Part shown: piece by piece, positions 50,414-59,904 of the stretch | How the letters are laid out: every line of letters starts with the position of its first letter | Position numbering within the stretch: the first letter of the stretch is position 1 | DNA from: Nonomuraea jabiensis | GTDB lineage: Bacteria > Actinomycetota > Actinomycetes > Streptosporangiales > Streptosporangiaceae | Reading direction: 5' to 3' | NCBI RefSeq assembly: GCF_014204795.1 | Contig: NZ_JACHMB010000001.1 | Coordinates: 7,762,501 to 7,826,500, forward strand | DNA: 64,000 nucleotides | The notes under the pieces: generated by a model | What the model was told of the DNA's origin: nothing | The model's database searches: none | The model's input: only the letters and a program-made list of their open reading frames with translations | Program-made: the position numbers and the translations under genes

Positions 50414-50917
50414 TCAGCCCTGCTCCAGCGAGCGGGCCTCCTTCCACCGCGGGCTGTCGAGGAAGTGGTTGTCGTACAGCTCCTGGGAGTTCAGCAGCTC
50501 CTCGAGGGTGGCCTCGCCGGCGCGCAGGCGGGCCAGCAGGCGGAAATACTCGAAGCGCTCCACGCCCGGCGTGATGACGATCAGCAGGTCCGCCTCGGAG
50601 CCGGGGGCGGCGGCGAAGGCGTGGGCGACGTTCGGCGGCACCACGGCCATGTCGCCCTCCTCCAGGGTGAGCACCTCCTCGCCCGCCAGCACCTGGGCGG
50701 CGCCGCCGAGGACGTAGAACAGCTCGCTGGAGGCGGTGTGCAGGTGGGGCACCGCGCCGTCGGCGCCCGGGGTGAGGGTCATGCGCAGGCTGCTCAGGGC
50801 GCCTGCGGTGGAGCTGGAGTCGAGCAGGAGCCGGCCGGTGGCCGGGGCGTCGCCGCCGCCGACGATCTCGGCGTCGGCCGCGCGTACGACTGCGGTCTCG
50901 GGCGTGATGAGCGACAT
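50414..50917 (-). CDS. Cupin-domain protein
   Basis: 167 residues. The cupin metal motif reads PHLHTASSELFYVLGG with the second motif GDMAVVPPNVAHAFAA. The single barrel is followed by a helical tail (FRLLARLRAGEATLEELLNS) of the type found in short quercetinase-like cupins. Two His and one Glu ligand are kept. It is 24 bases downstream of the TetR gene on the same strand, so probably part of its regulon. Substrate unknown. Confidence 0.88.
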   Translation of the reverse strand: MSLITPETAVVRAADAEIVGGGDAPATGRLLLDSSSTAGALSSLRMTLTPGADGAVPHLHTASSELFYVLGGAAQVLAGEEVLTLEEGDMAVVPPNVAHAFAAAPGSEADLLIVITPGVERFEYFRLLARLRAGEATLEELLNSQELYDNHFLDSPRWKEARSLEQG

Positions 50918-50941
50918 GGTGAGAAGTCCTTTCCGGGGAAG

Positions 50942-51541
50942 TCAGAGGGCGCCGTCGAGGGCGGCGGCGACCAGGCGTTCGGCATAGGCGCGATCGACCG
51001 GGTGGCCGGTGATCAGGACGCGGTAGTACAGGGCTCCGGCGAGCTGCTCCAGCAGCGTCATGGGGTCGACGTCGGGGCGGAGCCGGCCCTCGTCGCGGGC
51101 GCGCTCGATGAGGCGGCAGGCCAGCGCGTTGCGGCGGGCGTAGACGTCCCGCTCCAGCGCGCCGACGTCGTCGTGGCGGGCGGCGGCGGCGACCAGTTCG
51201 GCCACCGTCCCCGCCGAGCGGCTCTCCTGGCCGGGCGGCAGGCCCGCGACCCGCATCCGGTTGAGCCCGGCGGCGACCTTCTCCATGTAGTCGGTGAGGT
51301 CGCGCCGGATGTCGCCGGTGTCGGTGATCTCGTCGTGGTCCTGCAGCCTGGCCACGACGGCCAGGGCGAGGTGGTCCTTGGTGGGCCAGCGGCGGTACAG
51401 CGTGGTCTTGGCGATGCCGGCCCGCTCGGCCACCTCGTCGGTGGACAGGCCGCCGTACCCGTGCCGCAGCAGCAGCTCGGTGGCCGCCTGCAGGACGCGC
51501 TCGTCGACCTCGGTGTCACGCGGTCGCCCCCGTGGACTCAT
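50942..51541 (-). CDS. TetR-family transcriptional regulator
   Basis: 199 residues. The helix-turn-helix at about 20-60 reads ELLLRHGYGGLSTDEVAERA, then GIAKTTLYRRWPTKDHLALA. The C-terminal domain is all-helical (TetR_C-like, DIRRDLTDYMEKVAAGLNRM). ATG 51541 has GGAGGG seven bases upstream. A perfect 9-base-arm inverted repeat lies 15 bases upstream of the start, very probably its autoregulatory operator. The cupin gene follows in the same operon. Confidence 0.92.
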   Translation of the reverse strand: MSPRGRPRDTEVDERVLQAATELLLRHGYGGLSTDEVAERAGIAKTTLYRRWPTKDHLALAVVARLQDHDEITDTGDIRRDLTDYMEKVAAGLNRMRVAGLPPGQESRSAGTVAELVAAAARHDDVGALERDVYARRNALACRLIERARDEGRLRPDVDPMTLLEQLAGALYYRVLITGHPVDRAYAERLVAAALDGAL

Positions 51542-51577: not shown

Positions 51578-51635
51578 ATCAAGGTACACCGCGGCCGCTC
51601 ATTTACGCAACAGCAGTTTCGTATATGCCTTCGGG

Positions 51636-52164
51636 TCAGACGGTGAATTCGACTACCTGGGCCGGCGGCAGCCTCCCCGAGTAGTTGATCGTGTTCGTCG
51701 TCCGGCCCATGTAGCCGCTCCAGGCGTCCGAGCCGGACTCGCGCCCGCCGCCGGCCACGAGCGTGCCGCCCTGCTCCACGCTGGCCTCCAGGGCGGCGCG
51801 CAGGGCGGCGTGCGCGAGGCGGGCATGGCGGCGTGCGCGCGGCCGTTGATCAGCGGCCCGACGCGGGTGCCCGGCGCCATCGGGTTGCCGATCGGCAGCC
51901 GCGCGTACGCGTCGGTGAGCCGCTCGACCAGCGTGCCCCGGCTGGCGCGGGCACGGTCCGCCAGGCCAGGAACGCCTGCCCGGCCCGCTCCGCGGCGGTG
52001 TCGACCGCGCCAGGGTCAACCAAGTCCACCGCGGACAGCGGCCCACCGTTGATCGGCGAGGTCGCCGTGACGCCGCCGCCGAGCGCGCCCATGTCCACAC
52101 CGCAGCGCTTGGCGGTCTCCCGGGCCGTCGGGGCCGGCTCGTCGGCGCCGGGCAGCGCGGTCAT
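51636..52164 (-). pseudogene. Decayed aldehyde dehydrogenase, ALDH7/piperideine-6-carboxylate dehydrogenase type
   Basis: Read from the ATG at 52164, the first frame gives an ALDH7-like N-terminus ([20 protein letters not shown], then [14 protein letters not shown]). It then jumps to a late part of the family ([38 protein letters not shown]) in another frame. A third frame carries the true C-terminus ([38 protein letters not shown]). About 250-300 residues, including the catalytic Cys and Glu and the NAD site, are missing, and at least two frameshifts exist. It lies 16 bases after the FAD oxidase stop with an intact ribosome site, so it was once the second gene of that operon. Confidence 0.8.
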
Positions 52165-52180
52165 CCCCAGGATCTCCGTG

Positions 52181-53335
52181 TCAGACGATGTTGATCTCGG
52201 GCCTGGCCCCCGACAGGGCGAAGCGGCCCGCGTCGAAGCCGGTGACGTCCACGAACGGCGTCCGGTCCAGGTAGAGGTCACGGACCACCTCGCCGACGGC
52301 CGGGCTCATCAGGAAGCCGTGGCCGGAGAAGCCGGTGGCGTAGATGAACCGGTCGACGTCGCGGGCGGTGCCGATGAGGGCGTTGTGGTCCGGCGTCACC
52401 TCGTACAGGCCGGCCCAGCCGGTGGCGATGCCGGTCTCCATCAGCGCCGGGGCGCGGCGGGCCATGGCCTCGCCGAGCCTGGGCAGCCAGGCGTCGGAGC
52501 GGTCGAGCTTGAACCCCGGCGTCTCGTCGGGGTCGGACATGCCGAGCAGCAGCCCGGGGCCCTCGCGGTGGAAGTAGAACGTGGTGCCGAAGTCGATGGT
52601 GAACGCCATAGGCGGCAGGTCCGCGACCGGCTCGGTGACCAGAACCTGCCGGCGCAACGGGGTCACCGGCAGGTCGATCCCCACCCACTCGCCGACCGGC
52701 CGCGACCAGGCGCCCGCCGCGCAGATCACCGTGTCCGTCTCGATGCGGCCGCCCTCGGTCCGGACGGCGACGATGCGGCCGTCCACGACCTCGATGCCGG
52801 TCGCGGCGCAGTTCGGCAGCAGCCGCGCGCCCAGCCGCCGGGCCGCACCCGCGTAGCCGAGCACCACGGACTCGGGCGTGCAGTGGCCGTCGGTGGGGGA
52901 GTAGGCGGCGGCCAGCAGCCCGTCGGTGCCGATCAGCGGCGACAGCTCCTTGGCCTCCCGGACCGTGACCATCCGGCTGGGGACGCCGAGGTCGTTCTGG
53001 ATCGCCACGTTCTTCTCGAACTCGGCGACCGACCCGGGGGAGTCGAGCAGGAACAGGTAGCCGGGCTTGTGCAGGTCGATCTCCTGCCCGAAGCGCTCGG
53101 CGAAGGTCTCGAACGTCTCCAGGCTGCGTACGGCGAGCTCGATGTTGACCCGGTCGGAGAACTGCGCCCGCACGCCGCCGGCCGCCTTCGAGGTCGAGCC
53201 GGAGCCCAGCGGCCCCTTGTCGATGAGGACCACGTCGCTCACGCCGGCCGCGGCCAGCGCGTACGCCGAGCTGACGCCCATGGCGCCGCCTCCGATGATG
53301 ACCACCGAGGCCCGCGGGGGCAGGTCACGTCCCAT
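52181..53335 (-). CDS. FAD-dependent amine oxidase (DAO/sarcosine-oxidase-beta type), possible pipecolate oxidase
   Basis: 384 residues. The N-terminal dinucleotide fold VVIIGGGAMGVSSAYALAAA, SGSTSKAAGGVRAQF and the C-terminal GLYEVTPDHNALIGTA, then FIYATGFSGHGFLMSPAVGE, place it in the DAO family with glycine/sarcosine/proline-type substrates. Its neighbours (ALDH7 remnant downstream; D-2-hydroxyacid dehydrogenase and DUF1338 enzyme upstream) suggest L-pipecolate or a related cyclic imino acid as substrate, by analogy with AmaA of Pseudomonas. That is inference. ATG 53335 has GGAGA upstream; the left end of a tnpB transposon begins about 15-20 bases beyond the start, separating it from any older promoter. 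Confidence 0.85.
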   Translation of the reverse strand: MGRDLPPRASVVIIGGGAMGVSSAYALAAAGVSDVVLIDKGPLGSGSTSKAAGGVRAQFSDRVNIELAVRSLETFETFAERFGQEIDLHKPGYLFLLDSPGSVAEFEKNVAIQNDLGVPSRMVTVREAKELSPLIGTDGLLAAAYSPTDGHCTPESVVLGYAGAARRLGARLLPNCAATGIEVVDGRIVAVRTEGGRIETDTVICAAGAWSRPVGEWVGIDLPVTPLRRQVLVTEPVADLPPMAFTIDFGTTFYFHREGPGLLLGMSDPDETPGFKLDRSDAWLPRLGEAMARRAPALMETGIATGWAGLYEVTPDHNALIGTARDVDRFIYATGFSGHGFLMSPAVGEVVRDLYLDRTPFVDVTGFDAGRFALSGARPEINIV

Positions 53336-53353
53336 CAGAGTCTCCGGAGGGAA

Positions 53354-53373
53354 CCGTCGTCTTCAGGCGACGG
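53354..53373 (+). repeat. Left-end hairpin of the tnpB element
   Basis: Arms CCGTCGTC and GGCGACGG around a TTCA loop, seven pairs plus one G-T wobble. Resembles the right-end hairpin at 54716-54735. Confidence 0.55.
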
Positions 53374-53511
53374 GGGAATCGGGAGCGGGAGGGCCGTCAA
53401 GGGCCGAGTGTGCCCTGATCTGTCAGGTCCGGGTGCCACAGCTTTCCTTCCGGGTTTGTCGGTGCCAGGCGATATCGTGGTGGTCTCGTTACCGAGCGTG
53501 GGGGGTGGGGT

Positions 53512-54708
53512 GTGCGCAGATCATTCAAGTTCCTGCTGCGCCCCACCGGCAAGCAGGCCGCCGCGCTCGCGCAGTGCCTGGAAGACCACCGTCAGCTGTA
53601 CAACGCCGCTCTCGAACACCGCCGTACGGCCTACCGCAAAGCCGGGGTGACGGTGCGCTACGGCGAGCAGTCGGCCGATCTGAAGCACATCCGCGCCGAC
53701 GACCCCGACGGTCAGGGCCGATGGTCGTTCTCCTCCCAGCAGGCCACGCTCCGCCGTCTTGACAAGGCCTACCGGGCGTTCTTCGACCGCGTCAAAGCAG
53801 GCCGCACGCCAGGCTTTCCGCGTTTCAAGGGGCGGGGCCGGTTCGACACGGTCCAGTGGCCCAAGGACGGCGACGGCTGCCGGTGGCACTCCCAACCCGA
53901 GCACCCGACAGCGACCTACGTGCGGTTGCAGGGCATCGGGCATGTCCGGGCCCACCAGCACCGCCGAGTGCTCGGCACCGTCAAGACGATCAGTATCAAG
54001 CGGGAAGGCGCCCGCCGGTTCGTCGTGCTGTCGTGCGATGAGGTGCCCGCACCCACCCTTCCCGCCACGGGCGCGGTCGCGGGTGTTGACATGGGTGTCG
54101 CCTGGCTGGCCACGACCAGCGACGGCGACCACCTCGACAACCAGCGCCACCTCGCCGCCTGCGCGAGCCGGCTGGCAGCGGCCCAGCGGAAGCTGGCCGG
54201 TAAGAAGCGAGGATCCCAGCGGCGCGGTAAGGCCGTCGCGCGGGTGGCGGCCCTGCATGCCACGGTGCGGCGGCAACGCCTTGATGCGGCGCACAAGGCC
54301 GCGCTCGCGCTGGTTCGCGGCTACGACGTGATCGTGCATGAAGCGCTGAATGTGGCGGGCATGACCCGGCGTGCCGCGCCGCAACCGGACGGTGAAGGCG
54401 GCTACCTGCCTAACAGGCAAGCGGCTAAATCGGGGCTGAACAAGAGCATTCTCGACGCGGGTTGGTCGGCGTTCTTGACGATCCTGTCGCACAAGGCTGA
54501 AAGCGCCGGTCGACAGCTGATCGCGGTGAACCCGGCCAACACCTCCCGTACGTGCTCGCGCTGCGGGCACTGCGCGAAGGACAACCGCGTCACCCAGGCC
54601 GTCTTCCGACGTACGGGGTGCGGGCACGAGGCGCACGCCGACGTGAACGCGGCGATCAACATCTTGAGGGCAGGGCTTGCCCTTCGTGAGGCTGCGCAAG
54701 CGGCTTAG
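53512..54708 (+). CDS. tnpB: TnpB, RNA-guided nuclease of IS605-type element, zinc knuckle damaged
   Basis: 398 residues. The RuvC-like active site is complete: D193 in AVAGVDMGVAWLATT, E277 in VIVHEALNVAGM and D377 in HEAHADVNAAINI. The N-terminal helical region (RRSFKFLLRPTGKQAAALAQ) is family-typical. The zinc finger is incomplete: CSRCG (348, 351) is present, but the partner pair reads FRRTGCGH, with Arg367 where Cys is expected before C370. A single TGT-to-CGT change would explain it. TnpB cuts DNA guided by an omega RNA made from the element's 3' end. GTG 53512 follows a G-rich site. Activity is doubtful because of the lost ligand. Confidence 0.88.
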   Translation: MRRSFKFLLRPTGKQAAALAQCLEDHRQLYNAALEHRRTAYRKAGVTVRYGEQSADLKHIRADDPDGQGRWSFSSQQATLRRLDKAYRAFFDRVKAGRTPGFPRFKGRGRFDTVQWPKDGDGCRWHSQPEHPTATYVRLQGIGHVRAHQHRRVLGTVKTISIKREGARRFVVLSCDEVPAPTLPATGAVAGVDMGVAWLATTSDGDHLDNQRHLAACASRLAAAQRKLAGKKRGSQRRGKAVARVAALHATVRRQRLDAAHKAALALVRGYDVIVHEALNVAGMTRRAAPQPDGEGGYLPNRQAAKSGLNKSILDAGWSAFLTILSHKAESAGRQLIAVNPANTSRTCSRCGHCAKDNRVTQAVFRRTGCGHEAHADVNAAINILRAGLALREAAQAA

Positions 54709-54744
54709 CGAGAAGCCGCTCCCTTCAGGGAACGGAGGAGTCAC
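54590..54744 (+). ncRNA. Candidate omega RNA region at the tnpB 3' end
   Basis: By rule for this family, the guide scaffold overlaps the end of tnpB and extends to the right end of the element. Here that includes the hairpin at 54716-54735 and would use the bases after 54744 as guide. No independent sequence evidence beyond position and the hairpin. Confidence 0.3.
54716..54735 (+). repeat. Right-end hairpin of the tnpB element
   Basis: CCGCTCCC-TTCA-GGGAACGG, seven pairs with one C-A mismatch, just past the tnpB stop. Same loop as the left end. Confidence 0.55.
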
Positions 54745-54778
54745 TGATCGGCTTCCTTCCCAGCGAGCGGATCATCGG

Positions 54779-57622
54779 TTACGGCAGCCGGTCGGCGAGG
54801 AGCTGGGCCAGATGAGTGCCCCGCCGGGCCGACAGATCGGCGATCTGGGTGCGGCAGGAGAACCCGTCGGCGAGCACGGCCGTCCCCGGCCCGGCGTCCC
54901 GGATCGCCGGCAGCAGCTGGTGCTCGGCCACCGCCACGGACACGTCGTAATGCCCCTTCTCGACGCCGAAGTTGCCCGCCAGCCCGCAGCACCCGCCCAG
55001 CCGGCTCACCCGCGCGCCCGCCTCCCGCAGCAGCCGCAGGTCCTGCTCCCAGCCCATGACGGCGTGGTGGTGGCAGTGCGGCTGGGCCACCACCGTCACC
55101 CCGTCGAGCGGGGGCGGCCGCCAGCCGGGCGTGCCGGACAGCAGCTCGGCCAGCGTGCGGGTCATGCCCGCCACCGGCCCGGCCACCGCCTCGTCCAGCA
55201 GCTCCAGCGCGTCCGAGCGCAGCACGGCCGCGCAGGAGGGCTCCATCCCCACGATCGGCACGCCCTGCCCGGCAGCCTCGGCCAGCTCGGCGACCGTGCG
55301 GCCCAGGATGGCCCGGGCCGCGTCCAGCTGGCCGGTGGAGATCCACGTGAGCGCGCAGCACTGGCGGCGCCCGCTGATCTGCGGGCGGTAGCCGGCGGCC
55401 TCCAGCACCTTCACCGTCGCCCGGCCGATCTCCGGCGCGAAATGGTCGGTGAAGGTGTCGACGAACAGCATCACCGGCCTGCCCCCGGTTGGGCTGGACA
55501 TCGGCCGCCGCCGCTCGAACCAGGCCCGGAACGTCTCCCGCGCGAACTCCGGGAGCCCGCGCCGCCGGTCCACCCCGGCCAGCGCCGGCAGCCCCGGCAC
55601 CCGCATGAGCGCGTTCACCGCCCGCGGCATCCTGCTCGCCAGCCGCGCCCAGCGCGGCAGCCGCCCCAGGGAGTAGTGCGTGAGCGGGCGGACGCGCCCC
55701 TTGTAGGTCTGGTGGAGCACCTCCGACTTGTACGCGGCCATGTCGATCCCCGTCGGGCAGTCCGAGGCGCAGCCCTTGCAGGACAGGCAGAGGTCGAGGG
55801 CCTCGTGGACCTCGGGAGAGCGCCAGCCGCCGGTGACGTCCGAGCCGTTGATCATCTCCTGGAGCACCCGGGCGCGGCCCCGGGTGGAGTCCTTCTCCTC
55901 CCGGGTGGCCAGGTAGGAGGGGCACATCACCCCGCCGGCCGCGGTGTTGTCGGCCCGGCACTTGCCCACGCCCGTGCAGCGGTGCACGGCCTGGCCGAAG
56001 TCGCCGCCGTCGTGGCGGTAGGCCAGGGCCAGGCCCTCGCGCACCGGGCGGGCGGCCGGGACGCGCAGGTCGGCGTCCAGGGGGCGAGGCCGTACGAGCA
56101 CACCGGGGTTGAGCACGTCGCCCGGGTCGAAGATCGCCTTGACCCCGGCGAACAGGTCGATCGCCGCCTGCGAGTACATGAGCGGCAGCAGCTCGCTGCG
56201 GGCGCGGCCGTCTCCGTGCTCGCCGGACAGCGAGCCGCCGTAGCCGGCGACCAGCGTGGCCGCGGCCACCAGGAAGTCCCTGAACGTCACGCGCCCGCCC
56301 GGCCGGTCCAGCGGCACGTCGAGCCGGATGTGCAGGCAGCCGTCGCCGAAGTGCCCGTACGGCAGGCCGGTCAGGCCGTGCCCGGCCAGCAGCGCCTCGA
56401 AGTCGCGCAGGTAGCGGCCCAGCATCTCGGGCGGCACGGAGGCGTCCTCCCAGCCCGCGTGGGCCGGCCGCCCGGCGGGGCTGCGTCCCGACAGGCCCGC
56501 GCCGTCCTCACGGATGCGCCAGAGCGCCACGGACTCGGCCGGATCGGTGACGACCAGGGCGTCCTCGCCGCCGGCCGCCAGCCGGGCGGCCCGCTCCAGC
56601 ACCTCCGCCTCGTCGTCGCCCGCGATCTCGACGAACAGCCAGGCCGCGCCGCGCGGCAGCGGCGGCACGGCGCCGGGGCCCCGCCGCAGGCGCACCACGT
56701 CGACGATGCGCGCGTCGATGCCCTCGCAGGCCGTCGGCCGGTGCTCCAGCACTCCCGGCGCGGCGTCCCCGGCGGCGGCGATGTCGGCGTAGCCGAGCAC
56801 GACCAGGGCGCGGTACGCCGGATCGGTCACCAGCCGCACCGTCGCCTCCGTGAGCACCGCCAGCGTGCCCTCGCTGCCGACCAGCAGGCGGGCCACGTCG
56901 AACCCGCGCTCCGGCAGCAGGTGCTCCAGCGCGTATCCGGACATCTGCCGCCCGAACCGGCCGAACTCGGTCCTGATCGTGGCCAGGTTGGCCATCGCGA
57001 GGTCCCGCAGCGCGGCCGGGATGCCCTGCGCGGGCAGGTCCGGCGCGGCAGGGGCGCCCTGAGCGGGCAGGAGCTGGCCGGGCAGGTCCAGTGCGGTCCC
57101 GTCGCCGGTCACGGCCTTGAGCCCGGCGACGTTGTCGGACGTGCGGCCGTAGCCGAGCGTCCTGGAGCCGCAGGCGTTGTTGCCGATCATGCCGCCGATC
57201 GTGCACCGGGTGTGGGTGGACGGGTCGGGGCCGAACCTGAGCCCGTACGGGGCCGCCGCCCGCTGCAGGGCCGCCTGGACCACGCCCGGCTGCACCACCG
57301 CCGTGCGGGTCTCGGCGTCGACCCGCAGCACCTGGTTCATGTGGCGGCTGAAGTCCAGCACCAGGCCGGGGCCGACCGCGTTTCCGGCGACCGACGTGCC
57401 GCCGCCGCGCGCGGTGAGGGGGATCTCGTGGCGCGCGCACAGCTCGACCGCCGCGGCCACGTCCTCGGCGGACCGGGGCCGGGCCACCAGCAGCGGCGGC
57501 ACCCGGTAGAGGGAGGCGTCGGAGGAGTGGAGCGCCCGGGACGTGGGGTCGTCCAGCACGTCGGTGATCCCGCGACGGCGAAGGTCGGTCGCGAGAGCGG
57601 CAGCGCGGTCCATGAGTAGCAT
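54779..57622 (-). CDS. Fused FAD/Fe-S D-2-hydroxyacid dehydrogenase (D-2-hydroxyglutarate dehydrogenase, YdiJ type)
   Basis: 947 residues. The GlcD-like half (about 1-530) has a VAO-type FAD-binding domain (IPLTARGGGTSVAGNAVGPG, FGPDPSTHTRCTIGGMIGNN) and FAD-oxidase C-domain (YGHFGDGCLHIRLD, SGEHGDGRARSELL). The second half has ferredoxin-like 4Fe-4S ligands (CTGVGKC, CLSCKGCASDCPTG) and two CCG-type domains (RRQCCALTW, LGGCCGLAGNFG). This is the YdiJ-type fused layout of D-2-hydroxyglutarate dehydrogenases. Opposite the DUF1338 gene whose enzyme makes D-2-hydroxyglutarate, the role is very likely to oxidise that product to 2-oxoglutarate. ATG 57622 lies within an operator palindrome; ATG 57613 is an alternative. 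Confidence 0.88.
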   Translation of the reverse strand: MLLMDRAAALATDLRRRGITDVLDDPTSRALHSSDASLYRVPPLLVARPRSAEDVAAAVELCARHEIPLTARGGGTSVAGNAVGPGLVLDFSRHMNQVLRVDAETRTAVVQPGVVQAALQRAAAPYGLRFGPDPSTHTRCTIGGMIGNNACGSRTLGYGRTSDNVAGLKAVTGDGTALDLPGQLLPAQGAPAAPDLPAQGIPAALRDLAMANLATIRTEFGRFGRQMSGYALEHLLPERGFDVARLLVGSEGTLAVLTEATVRLVTDPAYRALVVLGYADIAAAGDAAPGVLEHRPTACEGIDARIVDVVRLRRGPGAVPPLPRGAAWLFVEIAGDDEAEVLERAARLAAGGEDALVVTDPAESVALWRIREDGAGLSGRSPAGRPAHAGWEDASVPPEMLGRYLRDFEALLAGHGLTGLPYGHFGDGCLHIRLDVPLDRPGGRVTFRDFLVAAATLVAGYGGSLSGEHGDGRARSELLPLMYSQAAIDLFAGVKAIFDPGDVLNPGVLVRPRPLDADLRVPAARPVREGLALAYRHDGGDFGQAVHRCTGVGKCRADNTAAGGVMCPSYLATREEKDSTRGRARVLQEMINGSDVTGGWRSPEVHEALDLCLSCKGCASDCPTGIDMAAYKSEVLHQTYKGRVRPLTHYSLGRLPRWARLASRMPRAVNALMRVPGLPALAGVDRRRGLPEFARETFRAWFERRRPMSSPTGGRPVMLFVDTFTDHFAPEIGRATVKVLEAAGYRPQISGRRQCCALTWISTGQLDAARAILGRTVAELAEAAGQGVPIVGMEPSCAAVLRSDALELLDEAVAGPVAGMTRTLAELLSGTPGWRPPPLDGVTVVAQPHCHHHAVMGWEQDLRLLREAGARVSRLGGCCGLAGNFGVEKGHYDVSVAVAEHQLLPAIRDAGPGTAVLADGFSCRTQIADLSARRGTHLAQLLADRLP

Positions 57623-57650
57623 GCTACATGCGACTCCTGTAGCATGCTAC
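57616..57650. promoter_or_regulatory. Paired operators GTAGCATGCTAC in the dehydrogenase/hglS divergent promoter
   Basis: Two identical, perfect 12-base palindromes at 57616-57627 and 57639-57650, 23 bases apart start to start (about two turns). The GTA-n-TAC shape suits a GntR/FadR-type dimer, and such a gene lies at 59149-59904. One copy covers the ATG of the dehydrogenase; the other is 31 bases upstream of the hglS start. Confidence 0.75.
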
Positions 57651-57680
57651 GCGCTTCCGGCGGCGAGGAGAGAAGGCACG

Positions 57681-59087
57681 ATGGTCGACGCGACCGCACT
57701 CCGGGCGGCTTTCGCCCGGCGCCTGTCAGCGATGTACGGCACCGAGGTCCCCGCGTACAACACCCTCGTCGACGTCGCGCAGGAGGTGAACCGCGAGGTG
57801 CTGGCCCGGATGGGCGCCGACGCCGAACGCCTCGGCTCCATCGGCCGCGTCACCGCCGAGCGGCACGGCGCGATCCGCGTCGGCACCCCGGCCGAGCTGG
57901 CGCAGGTCGCGCGGATCTTCGGCGCGATGGGCATGTACCCCGTCGGCTACTACGACCTGCGCGAGGCGGCCGGCAGCTCCGTGCCCGTCGTCTCCACCGC
58001 CTTCCGCCCGGTGGACGAGGCCGAGCTGGCCGCCAACCCCTTCCGCGTGTTCACCTCCATGCTGGTGACGGGCGACCGGCGGTTCTTCGGCGCGGACCTG
58101 GAGCGCCGGCTCGGCGAGTTCCTGGGGGCGCGCCGGCTGTTCCCGCCGCGCCTGCTCGACCTGGCCGACCGCGCCGAGGCCGAGGGCGGCCTGGACGGCG
58201 AGGCGGCCGAGGAGTTCCTGACGCTCGCCACGCGGGCGTTCGAGCTGTCCGCCGAGCCGGTCTCCCGCAGCTGGTACGCCGAGCTCGAACGCGTGTCCTC
58301 CGTGGCCGCCGACATCGGCGGCGTGGCCTCCACGCACGTCAACCACCTGACCCCGCGCGTGCTCGACATCGACGCCCTCTACGCCCGCATGAGCGAGCGC
58401 GGCATCACCATGATCGACGCCATCCAGGGGCCGCCCCGCTGGGACGGCCCCGACCTCCTGCTGCGCCAGACGTCCTTCCGGGCGCTGGCCGAGCCGCGGC
58501 TGTTCAGGGAGGACGACGGCCGGGTCGTCCAGGACGACCTGCGGGTGCGGTTCGGGGAGGTGGAGGCGCGCGGCATCGCCGTGACGCCCGCCGGACGCGC
58601 GCTCTACGACGAGCTGTCGGCCGAGCTGGACGCGCTGCTCGCCGGGCAGCAGGTCACCGCGGAGGAGCGCAACGCCGCCGGGGCCAAGTTGTGGGCTGAC
58701 CGGGTGCCGCGCGGCGAGGCCGAGCTGATCGCGGGCGACCTCGCGTACTTCACCTTCCACGTCCTCGACGCCCGCCCCGGCGGCGCCGCGCCCGCCGACC
58801 TCGCGACCCTCCTGGCCGACGGGTGGGTCGGCGCCCGGCCCATCGTGTACGAGGACTTCCTGCCGCGCTCGGCCGCCGGCATCTTCCAGTCCAACCTGAC
58901 CTCCGACGGCGCCAAGGACGTGACGGCGGCGGGCGCCGACTTCGGCCCCGAGGCGCTGGCCGCGGTGCTCGGACGCCCGCTGCACGACCCCTACGAGCTG
59001 TACGCGTCGATCCGGGCGGCGTCGCTGGCCCGCGTCCGCGCCGACCTCGGCCTGACCCGGGAGATCACCCTGCCCCCGGCCCGTTAG
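57681..59087 (+). CDS. hglS: 2-oxoadipate dioxygenase/decarboxylase (DUF1338, HglS/YdcJ)
   Basis: 468 residues of the DUF1338 family, a VOC-fold iron enzyme that turns 2-oxoadipate into D-2-hydroxyglutarate and CO2 in lysine breakdown. Probable metal ligands by comparison with the Pseudomonas enzyme: H62 in AERHGAIRVGTPAEL, H219 or H222 in STHVNHLTPRVLDID and E293 in VRFGEVEARGIA; R66 fits the substrate arginine. Family length is about 450-470. ATG 57681 is preceded by GGAGAGAAGG. It is divergent from the D-2-hydroxyglutarate dehydrogenase with paired operators between, and upstream of a convergent GntR regulator. Confidence 0.85.
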   Translation: MVDATALRAAFARRLSAMYGTEVPAYNTLVDVAQEVNREVLARMGADAERLGSIGRVTAERHGAIRVGTPAELAQVARIFGAMGMYPVGYYDLREAAGSSVPVVSTAFRPVDEAELAANPFRVFTSMLVTGDRRFFGADLERRLGEFLGARRLFPPRLLDLADRAEAEGGLDGEAAEEFLTLATRAFELSAEPVSRSWYAELERVSSVAADIGGVASTHVNHLTPRVLDIDALYARMSERGITMIDAIQGPPRWDGPDLLLRQTSFRALAEPRLFREDDGRVVQDDLRVRFGEVEARGIAVTPAGRALYDELSAELDALLAGQQVTAEERNAAGAKLWADRVPRGEAELIAGDLAYFTFHVLDARPGGAAPADLATLLADGWVGARPIVYEDFLPRSAAGIFQSNLTSDGAKDVTAAGADFGPEALAAVLGRPLHDPYELYASIRAASLARVRADLGLTREITLPPAR

Positions 59088-59148
59088 CCCGGCCGCGACT
59101 GTCGACGAGGGCTCGCCAGCTTGGCTCCGGCTCGTCGACGATGGCCCC

Positions 59149-59904
59149 TCAACCCGGCTGCGGCTCGTCGACGATGGACGCCCACAACGCGTCCACGTCG
59201 ACCGGCTCGCCCTGGGCCCTGGCCGCCTGCCGGGCCAGGATGAGGCCGGTGTTGGTCAGATGGGCCCGCATCGCGCGCACCGCGCCCTCGGCGTCCGCCG
59301 CCGCGACGGCCGCCACGATCGGCTCGTGCTCCTCGTGCACCTGCCGCAGCGTCCGGGAACGGTCGTCCGTGGACGTGCCCAGGATGCGCATGGTGTCGCG
59401 CAGCCCGCCCACGATCGCGCGGGCCCTGCCGTTGCCCGCCGCGACCAGGACGTGGTCGTGCAGCGCCTGGTCGAGCTGGAAGAACAGCGCCTCGTCGGCC
59501 GCCTCGACCGCCGCCGCCATCTCCTCCATGGTCGCCCTCAGCGCCGCGCCGAGCCCGGCGGCGTCGCCCCTGGCGGCCCGCCGCACGGCGGGCAGCTCCA
59601 GAGCCAGCCGCACCCCGAAGATCTCGACGATCTCCCGGGGGTGCGGCAGCACGACGCGGAACCCGCGGTTGCGCTCCACCTGCACCAGCCCCGCCTCGGC
59701 CAGCCGCAGCATCGCCTCGCGGACCGGGCTCCTGGAGACGTTGAGCTGCTCGGCCACCTGGTAGACGGAGTAGAGCCGGCCCGGGACCATCGCGCCCGTG
59801 TGCACCGCCCGGCGCACCTCGGAGATCACCTGCTCGGCCAGCGACCGGCCCGCGTGCGGCAACGGCTGCAGCTTCAGCTCGGCGTGTTCGCGGGTCGGCG
59901 GCAT
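59149..59904 (-). CDS. GntR-family regulator with FCD domain
   Basis: 251 residues. N-terminal winged helix (SVYQVAEQLNVSRSPVREAM, LRLAEAGLVQVERNRGF), then an FCD all-helical effector domain with metal-site residues (FQLDQALHDHVLVAAGN, RQVHEEHEPIVAAV). FCD regulators sense carboxylates. Position beside hglS and the palindromes at 57616-57650 make it the likely regulator of the 2-oxoadipate genes. ATG 59904 fits; a 10-base palindrome CCCGTACGGG stands 13 bases upstream. The last 22 bases of the gene are duplicated just past the stop. Confidence 0.92.
   Translation of the reverse strand: MPPTREHAELKLQPLPHAGRSLAEQVISEVRRAVHTGAMVPGRLYSVYQVAEQLNVSRSPVREAMLRLAEAGLVQVERNRGFRVVLPHPREIVEIFGVRLALELPAVRRAARGDAAGLGAALRATMEEMAAAVEAADEALFFQLDQALHDHVLVAAGNGRARAIVGGLRDTMRILGTSTDDRSRTLRQVHEEHEPIVAAVAAADAEGAVRAMRAHLTNTGLILARQAARAQGEPVDVDALWASIVDEPQPG

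Follow-up and report, generated by a model that had tools for sequence, protein, structure and literature searches.

The window analysed here is a stretch of 64,000 nucleotides (positions 7,762,501–7,826,500) of the 13.17-Mb single-contig genome of Nonomuraea jabiensis, and it carries a gene cluster that is probably a strain-specific remnant of an actinobacterial pathway from piperideine-6-carboxylate (P6C) to 2-oxoglutarate. In window coordinates and from left to right, the locus contains the pseudogene of an ALDH7-type P6C dehydrogenase (51636–52183, minus strand), a gene for an FAD-dependent amine dehydrogenase/oxidase of the DAO family, proposed to be an L-pipecolate dehydrogenase (52181–53335, minus strand; PF01266, 246 bits), a solo-TnpB insertion element of 1,408 bp (53337–54744, plus strand), a gene for a fused FAD/Fe-S D-2-hydroxyacid dehydrogenase, proposed to be a D-2-hydroxyglutarate dehydrogenase (D2HGDH; 54779–57622, minus strand), a gene for HglS, a predicted 2-oxoadipate dioxygenase/decarboxylase (DUF1338; 57681–59087, plus strand), and a gene for a GntR/FCD regulator (59149–59904, minus strand; PF00392, PF07729). 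The five genes named in the original prediction were all found where it had placed them, except that the ALDH7 remnant lies to the left of (downstream from) the FAD gene and not between the FAD and D2HGDH genes. That interval holds the TnpB gene, which the prediction had not included, and in some relatives a LysR gene.

The ALDH7-type gene is reduced to pieces. In a search of the whole genome these matched the P6C dehydrogenase model NF050084 (cut-off 730 bits) at profile positions 433–474 and 278–315 only (42 and 38 positions); the protein pieces fall in different frames, and the window gene has no complete open reading frame over the cut-off. The corresponding gene of the nearest relative (genome G002, HglS 97% identical to the window protein) is intact, with 510 aa and a score of 795 bits. 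Aligned to this gene, the remnant consists of three blocks (about 51635–51752, 51741–51933 and 51918–52184) whose DNA is 89, 83 and 90% identical; the gaps between them amount to ~0.7 kb and ~0.3 kb of lost sequence, and the missing middle block is what we take to be the region with the catalytic cysteine. In the window, adjoining blocks have overlaps of 16 and 12 bases, the pattern that deletion between short direct repeats would leave. These data bear out the idea of a lower lysine/pipecolate locus in which the second step has decayed.

The distribution of this gene was followed in the genus, where HglS was matched in 17 of 54 genomes, of which 16 were searched further (G051, with a partial HglS match, was left out). 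Exactly one P6C dehydrogenase over the cut-off was present in each of the 15 other HglS-bearing genomes (15/15) and none in this strain, in which the best other match to the model anywhere in the genome reached 360–361 bits, far below 730; the search for an intact copy elsewhere in the genome thus found none over the cut-off. One of 14 control genomes had such a dehydrogenase, and two genomes of the genus without an HglS match (G014, G026) had no P6C match at 1e-200. Within the searched part of the genus, decay of the ALDH7 gene is therefore confined to this strain. Two further loci of the genus (L108, L111) have HglS and D2HGDH genes with no ALDH7 gene in the stretch; the P6C dehydrogenase of G029, the genome of L108, lies ~10 kb from HglS, and that of G043 lies on another contig. 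Lysine 6-aminotransferase (LAT) was found over its cut-off, one each, in all 16 genus genomes searched, including this strain, and in 0 of 14 controls. No other gene of the locus set occurs in the 17 kb surrounding the LAT gene of this genome (L116).

At the other end of the FAD gene stands the mobile element, the ends of which were fixed at 53337 and 54744 from the 11 full copies that the genome holds, the ten others being 92–94% identical to this one. Its TnpB open reading frame (53512–54708) passes the RNA-guided TnpB model NF040570 (256 bits, cut-off 100) and stays below the cut-offs of the IS200_TnpB and IS607_TnpB models (198 of 425 and 103 of 350 bits, respectively). The motif CCATC lies directly left of the element in 10 of the 11 copies, and in the window the complement of this motif contains the start codon of the FAD gene. 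On the right, the 15 bases at 54746–54760, GATCGGCTTCCTTCC, are identical to those directly before the FAD start in G002, and this relic of the former leader indicates a clean insertion that parted the FAD start codon from its leader. The left end of the element carries GGAG six bases ahead of the FAD ATG, a Shine-Dalgarno-like motif that could act as the ribosome-binding site of the FAD gene.

In G002, the locus of which is intact, a LysR gene stands where this strain has the TnpB element. Three of eight same-genus relatives that carry the FAD gene (G002, G006, G042) have LysR between FAD and D2HGDH; it is absent here and from the other five. Insertion of the element was considered as the cause of the LysR loss and was rejected: these five relatives have neither LysR nor a TnpB match at that place, so LysR is also lost where no element is found, and the old FAD leader survives on the right of the element, so the insertion and the loss look like separate events.

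The original prediction had set the FAD enzyme beside the pipecolate oxidase (AmaA) of Pseudomonas putida. Membership of the AmaA family was ruled out by score, with the protein reaching 52.9 bits against the AmaA model NF050086 (cut-off 600). Its closest sequence in the PDB is chain 1y56_B (E 2e-67), the beta chain of an archaeal enzyme entitled L-proline dehydrogenase of P. horikoshii; the closest solved relative thus acts on the five-ring homologue of pipecolate. Domain-family scans recognised no gene for a partner subunit, as for the P. horikoshii enzyme, among the genes of the locus. The best reading is that the FAD enzyme would be a proline-dehydrogenase-like L-pipecolate dehydrogenase that feeds P6C, not AmaA, with gene context and the relatives pointing to L-pipecolate oxidation. 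A literature search found no enzyme named for the conversion of pipecolate to P6C in actinobacteria. In Actinoallomurus purpureus (L023:6730–7087) the last 52 residues alone of the FAD gene were found, with no match for LysR and with ALDH7 present; this piece was excluded from counts of FAD loci.

The remainder of the pathway looks intact, as judged from its sequences. HglS scores 708 bits against NF050083 (Myco_VOC_HglS, cut-off 600) and 454 bits against PF07063 (cut-off 25), and does not reach the other HglS model, NF049974 (394 of 550 bits); its closest named relatives, in a search of named genomes, are from Nonomuraea, Sphaerisporangium and Actinoallomurus. PMC7286885 gives His70, His226 and Glu294 as the metal ligands of Pseudomonas putida HglS and arginine 74 as the substrate arginine. 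When the window protein was aligned to 6w1g, its H62, H222, E293 and R66 corresponded to His70, His226, Glu294 and Arg74, so that the metal ligands expected of the DUF1338 enzyme and the substrate arginine are retained; Val402 of the P. putida enzyme is replaced by Arg and Ser403 is kept. At the level of sequence, the predicted HglS activity of the window protein is well supported. The D2HGDH-like protein has FAD-binding (PF01565), FAD-oxidase C (PF02913), 4Fe-4S (PF13183) and CCG (PF02754) domains all in one chain, and its top NCBIfam match is YdiJ (NF049975), at 434 bits with a cut-off of 1350. No stops interrupt the FAD, D2HGDH, HglS or GntR genes.

Gene neighbourhoods in relatives were compared in two draws of loci, in both of which absences are soft because some fetched stretches end at contig ends. 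The best 80 of 109 HglS loci found in named genomes include an ALDH7 gene in 73, the FAD gene in 34 and LAT in 33, with FAD and LAT together in none. The second draw, made without regard to HglS, covered 394 genomes of the class, in 73 of which the cut-off for P6C dehydrogenase was passed, at 74 places in all; within 9 kb of it were found FAD (11), LAT (21) and HglS (28), and again FAD and LAT never shared a place (hypergeometric P for the lack of overlap, 0.018). In these 11 FAD loci the FAD gene always lies on the ALDH7 strand (11/11) and in six of them within 650 bases, while HglS is not in the stretch for seven. Genes of the locus thus regularly adjoin in relatives, as had been expected, and this locus type (HglS and ALDH7, with or without FAD) is common in actinobacteria, so that the proposal that finding these functions together is special in an actinomycete does not stand. 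On the simplest reading, LAT and the FAD enzyme would be two ways to P6C, from lysine and from pipecolate. A glutamate-dehydrogenase-like gene occurs only with FAD in both draws (7/80 and 3/74), which leaves the deamination step to an enzyme other than the FAD enzyme; most simply, 2-aminoadipate would be deaminated by this glutamate-dehydrogenase-like enzyme or by an unlinked transaminase. No ortholog of this gene was found in the present genome (best 36%) or in the eight same-genus FAD loci. In a phylogeny built with 145 ALDH7 proteins of the 154 loci (nine without a match of >420 residues at >55% identity were left out), FAD changes 10 times and LAT four times, all strongly clustered.

Three known systems invite comparison. 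The D-lysine/pipecolate route of P. putida runs through AmaA, AmaB, HglS and a YdiJ-type D2HGDH, and the window locus shares with it the same four reaction types in one neighbourhood and the conserved active-site residues of HglS. It differs in that the FAD enzyme falls outside the AmaA model, the D2HGDH lies below the YdiJ cut-off, the P6C dehydrogenase is dead, and HglS passes the mycobacterial-type model and not the other one. Promicromonospora, Isoptericola and Streptomyces have a FAD–HglS–ALDH7 locus (23 cases: L027–L040, L043, L044, L046–L049, L053, L054 and L087), in which FAD is 48–55% and HglS 63–68% identical to the window proteins and the one P6C dehydrogenase scanned (L027) is intact and passes the cut-off with 781 bits; gene order differs from that of the window and no D2HGDH gene was found in the stretches. 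The mycobacterial-type locus LAT–Lrp–HglS–P6C dehydrogenase (for example L072 and L077) shares the HglS and P6C dehydrogenase neighbours and differs in having LAT and Lrp beside HglS, with no FAD gene found in its stretches.

Some loci stand apart from these comparisons. On a draft contig of Promicromonospora kroppenstedtii (L071:3195–5555), HglS and ALDH7 each occur in two interleaved pieces, which may be an assembly fault. In same-family genomes (L158–L195), a P6C dehydrogenase occurs without FAD, LAT or HglS nearby, and 13 of these loci lie near a conserved gene of ~350 aa of unassigned kind (cluster 7). Left of the window locus (50414–51541) are cupin and TetR-family genes, for which no match is listed in the relatives' stretches.

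The divergent promoter between the D2HGDH and HglS genes (57616–57650) contains the palindrome GTAGCATGCTAC twice (57616–57627 and 57639–57650), 23 bases apart, and both copies are also found in G002. Fifteen close-relative HglS loci were compared (L020–L026 and L100–L107), 12 of them distinct (L101, L104 and L106 repeat L020, L026 and L025). At least one exact or degenerate copy lies at the D2HGDH start in all 12; none does in L108 and L027. The GntR gene is close to HglS in 11 of the 12 loci (1.6 kb away in L023; no match in L024). The 13.17-Mb genome has three sites of a ten-base core, TAGCATGCTA, of which this promoter accounts for two, and the reversed pattern likewise has three; GTGGCATGCCAC adds one further site in the genome, with reversed patterns at 4–5 places versus three. 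Since reversed patterns are equally frequent, only the pairing and the conservation of the palindrome argue for it. Its use as a regulon marker was discarded, with one extra TAGCATGCTA site and one GTGGCATGCCAC site to be set against reversed controls that are as common; no open reading frame around the extra TAGCATGCTA site was recognised. The GntR regulator is likely to bind the GTAGCATGCTAC copies, which are candidate operator sites.

Taken together, the locus probably represents what is left of the pathway after the following events, where we infer the substrates of the locus enzymes. In relatives, the FAD enzyme would oxidise L-pipecolate to P6C and the ALDH7 enzyme would oxidise P6C to 2-aminoadipate, from which an unlinked transaminase, or in some genomes the linked glutamate-dehydrogenase-like enzyme, would produce 2-oxoadipate; HglS would convert this to D-2-hydroxyglutarate, and the fused dehydrogenase would yield 2-oxoglutarate. 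LAT, encoded elsewhere, would also make P6C, from lysine. In this strain, the TnpB element at the FAD start codon would have separated the old leader from the FAD gene and from the ALDH7 gene downstream of it; LysR would have been lost and the ALDH7 gene would have collapsed, in whatever order these events came. The collapse of the ALDH7 gene, together with a mobile element at the start of the gene for the first enzyme, means that the route was probably cut in the middle. P6C would then be the end point of both routes that lead to it, barring its reduction to pipecolate; PMC9854754 describes pyrroline-5-carboxylate reductase as able to reduce P6C. The HglS/D2HGDH pair, with the GntR gene and the candidate operator, would serve 2-aminoadipate or 2-oxoadipate from other sources, or may be in the course of being lost.

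Several observations weigh against this account. The dN/dS values relative to G002 (0.22 for FAD, 0.27 for D2HGDH, 0.25 for HglS and 0.11 for GntR) themselves speak for the account, but they come at a dS of only 0.06–0.09. Summed over these four genes, the lineage of this strain has 21 amino-acid and 39 silent changes and that of G002 12 and 30 (for HglS, four and zero amino-acid changes, respectively), and changes this few neither show nor exclude relaxed selection. Translation of the FAD gene may continue from the element's GGAG. The exclusivity of FAD and LAT is clustered on the ALDH7 tree and partly follows descent, an independent-pairs test of FAD against LAT gave eight pairs with LAT differing in ~0.9, too few to decide, and the same genus genomes do carry LAT, at an unlinked site, which makes the exclusion one of loci and not of genomes. 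The genus locus L108 (G029) has the glutamate-dehydrogenase-like gene with HglS and D2HGDH without FAD. By fold, finally, sarcosine oxidase beta subunits tie for the best match to the FAD enzyme. Along with its top NCBIfam scores (N-methyltryptophan oxidase 126, ThiO 119 and SoxB 118 bits), this could mark the protein as an oxidase of sarcosine, glycine or N-methyl amino acids that is unconnected to the pathway. That would be improbable, as all three scores are far below their cut-offs (257, 251 and 529 bits, respectively) and the FAD gene recurs beside ALDH7 across many genera.

A more serious alternative places the FAD enzyme after ALDH7, as an L-2-aminoadipate oxidase or dehydrogenase; FAD, HglS and D2HGDH would then form a complete route from 2-aminoadipate to 2-oxoglutarate, with only the P6C step dropped. 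This would account for the intact frames of exactly these three genes, and L-amino acid deaminases do occur in the sequence and fold lists of the FAD enzyme. It nevertheless seems unlikely, given that a proline dehydrogenase is nearest to the FAD enzyme in sequence, that the glutamate-dehydrogenase-like gene, suited to deamination, stands in 7/34 and 3/11 FAD loci, and that LAT and FAD exclude each other beside HglS and ALDH7, as expected for two sources of P6C. A little less likely again is a pathway that still works because another aldehyde dehydrogenase took over P6C oxidation. The candidate, C1:12475291–12476694, scores higher against the P6C model than against any other NCBIfam model, but at about 360 bits it remains far from the threshold passed by the G002 locus copy and by one copy each in the 15 other genomes. 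The listed contamination of the genome (5.46) could suggest that a fault of assembly or sequencing lies behind the ALDH7 lesion, yet two large losses with flanking blocks that overlap like deletions between short direct repeats, in a locus with uninterrupted other genes, make this the least credible explanation. We thus favour the remnant of a P6C-to-2-oxoglutarate pathway.

The position of the TnpB element led to a comparison with its family in the genus. At least 48 distinct copies with DNA were collected (at most seven candidates scored per genome), 33 of them with an alignable left end (the window copy, L118–L127 and 22 of L213–L249, L249 being cut at the right). CCATC lies left of the element in 29 of these 33; its complement is GATGG, whose ATG would be the start codon of the gene that runs the opposite way. 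With a first classifier, 19 of the 33 copies were at the start codon of an opposite-strand gene; for GATGG sites taken from the window plus 17 fetched stretches the figure was 97 of 841 (P = 2e-10). A second, stricter classifier, which put the window's own insertion site as intergenic, gave a weaker result (11/33 versus 19/476, P = 4e-7), weaker still against intergenic sites alone (11:13 versus 19:75, P = 0.017), so that the start-codon excess partly reflects a scarcity of insertions inside genes; related loci are among the DNA used as background. The family resembles IS605-like solo TnpB elements in passing the RNA-guided TnpB model, in the short motif to its left and in that no target duplication was seen, and differs in that CCATC overlaps opposite-strand start codons more often than background. 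A literature search found no report of TnpB elements at start codons. We offer only as a tentative suggestion, more doubtful than the pathway reading, that this family uses start codons as landing sites and swaps the leader of a gene for its own, leaving the protein intact and its expression re-wired, and that here it uncoupled the pipecolate dehydrogenase from its operon, after which the pathway behind it decayed. If confirmed, this choice of start codons as targets would be of broader interest than the locus itself.

The chemistry of the lower lysine route is already known, and the candidate new part is a variant first enzyme: the proline-dehydrogenase-like family whose genes adjoin that of P6C dehydrogenase in genera such as Promicromonospora, Streptomyces and Nonomuraea is a testable candidate for the conversion of pipecolate to P6C. 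The strain itself looks like a natural P6C dehydrogenase knock-out that still carries LAT, and so may provide a test case for the fate of P6C.

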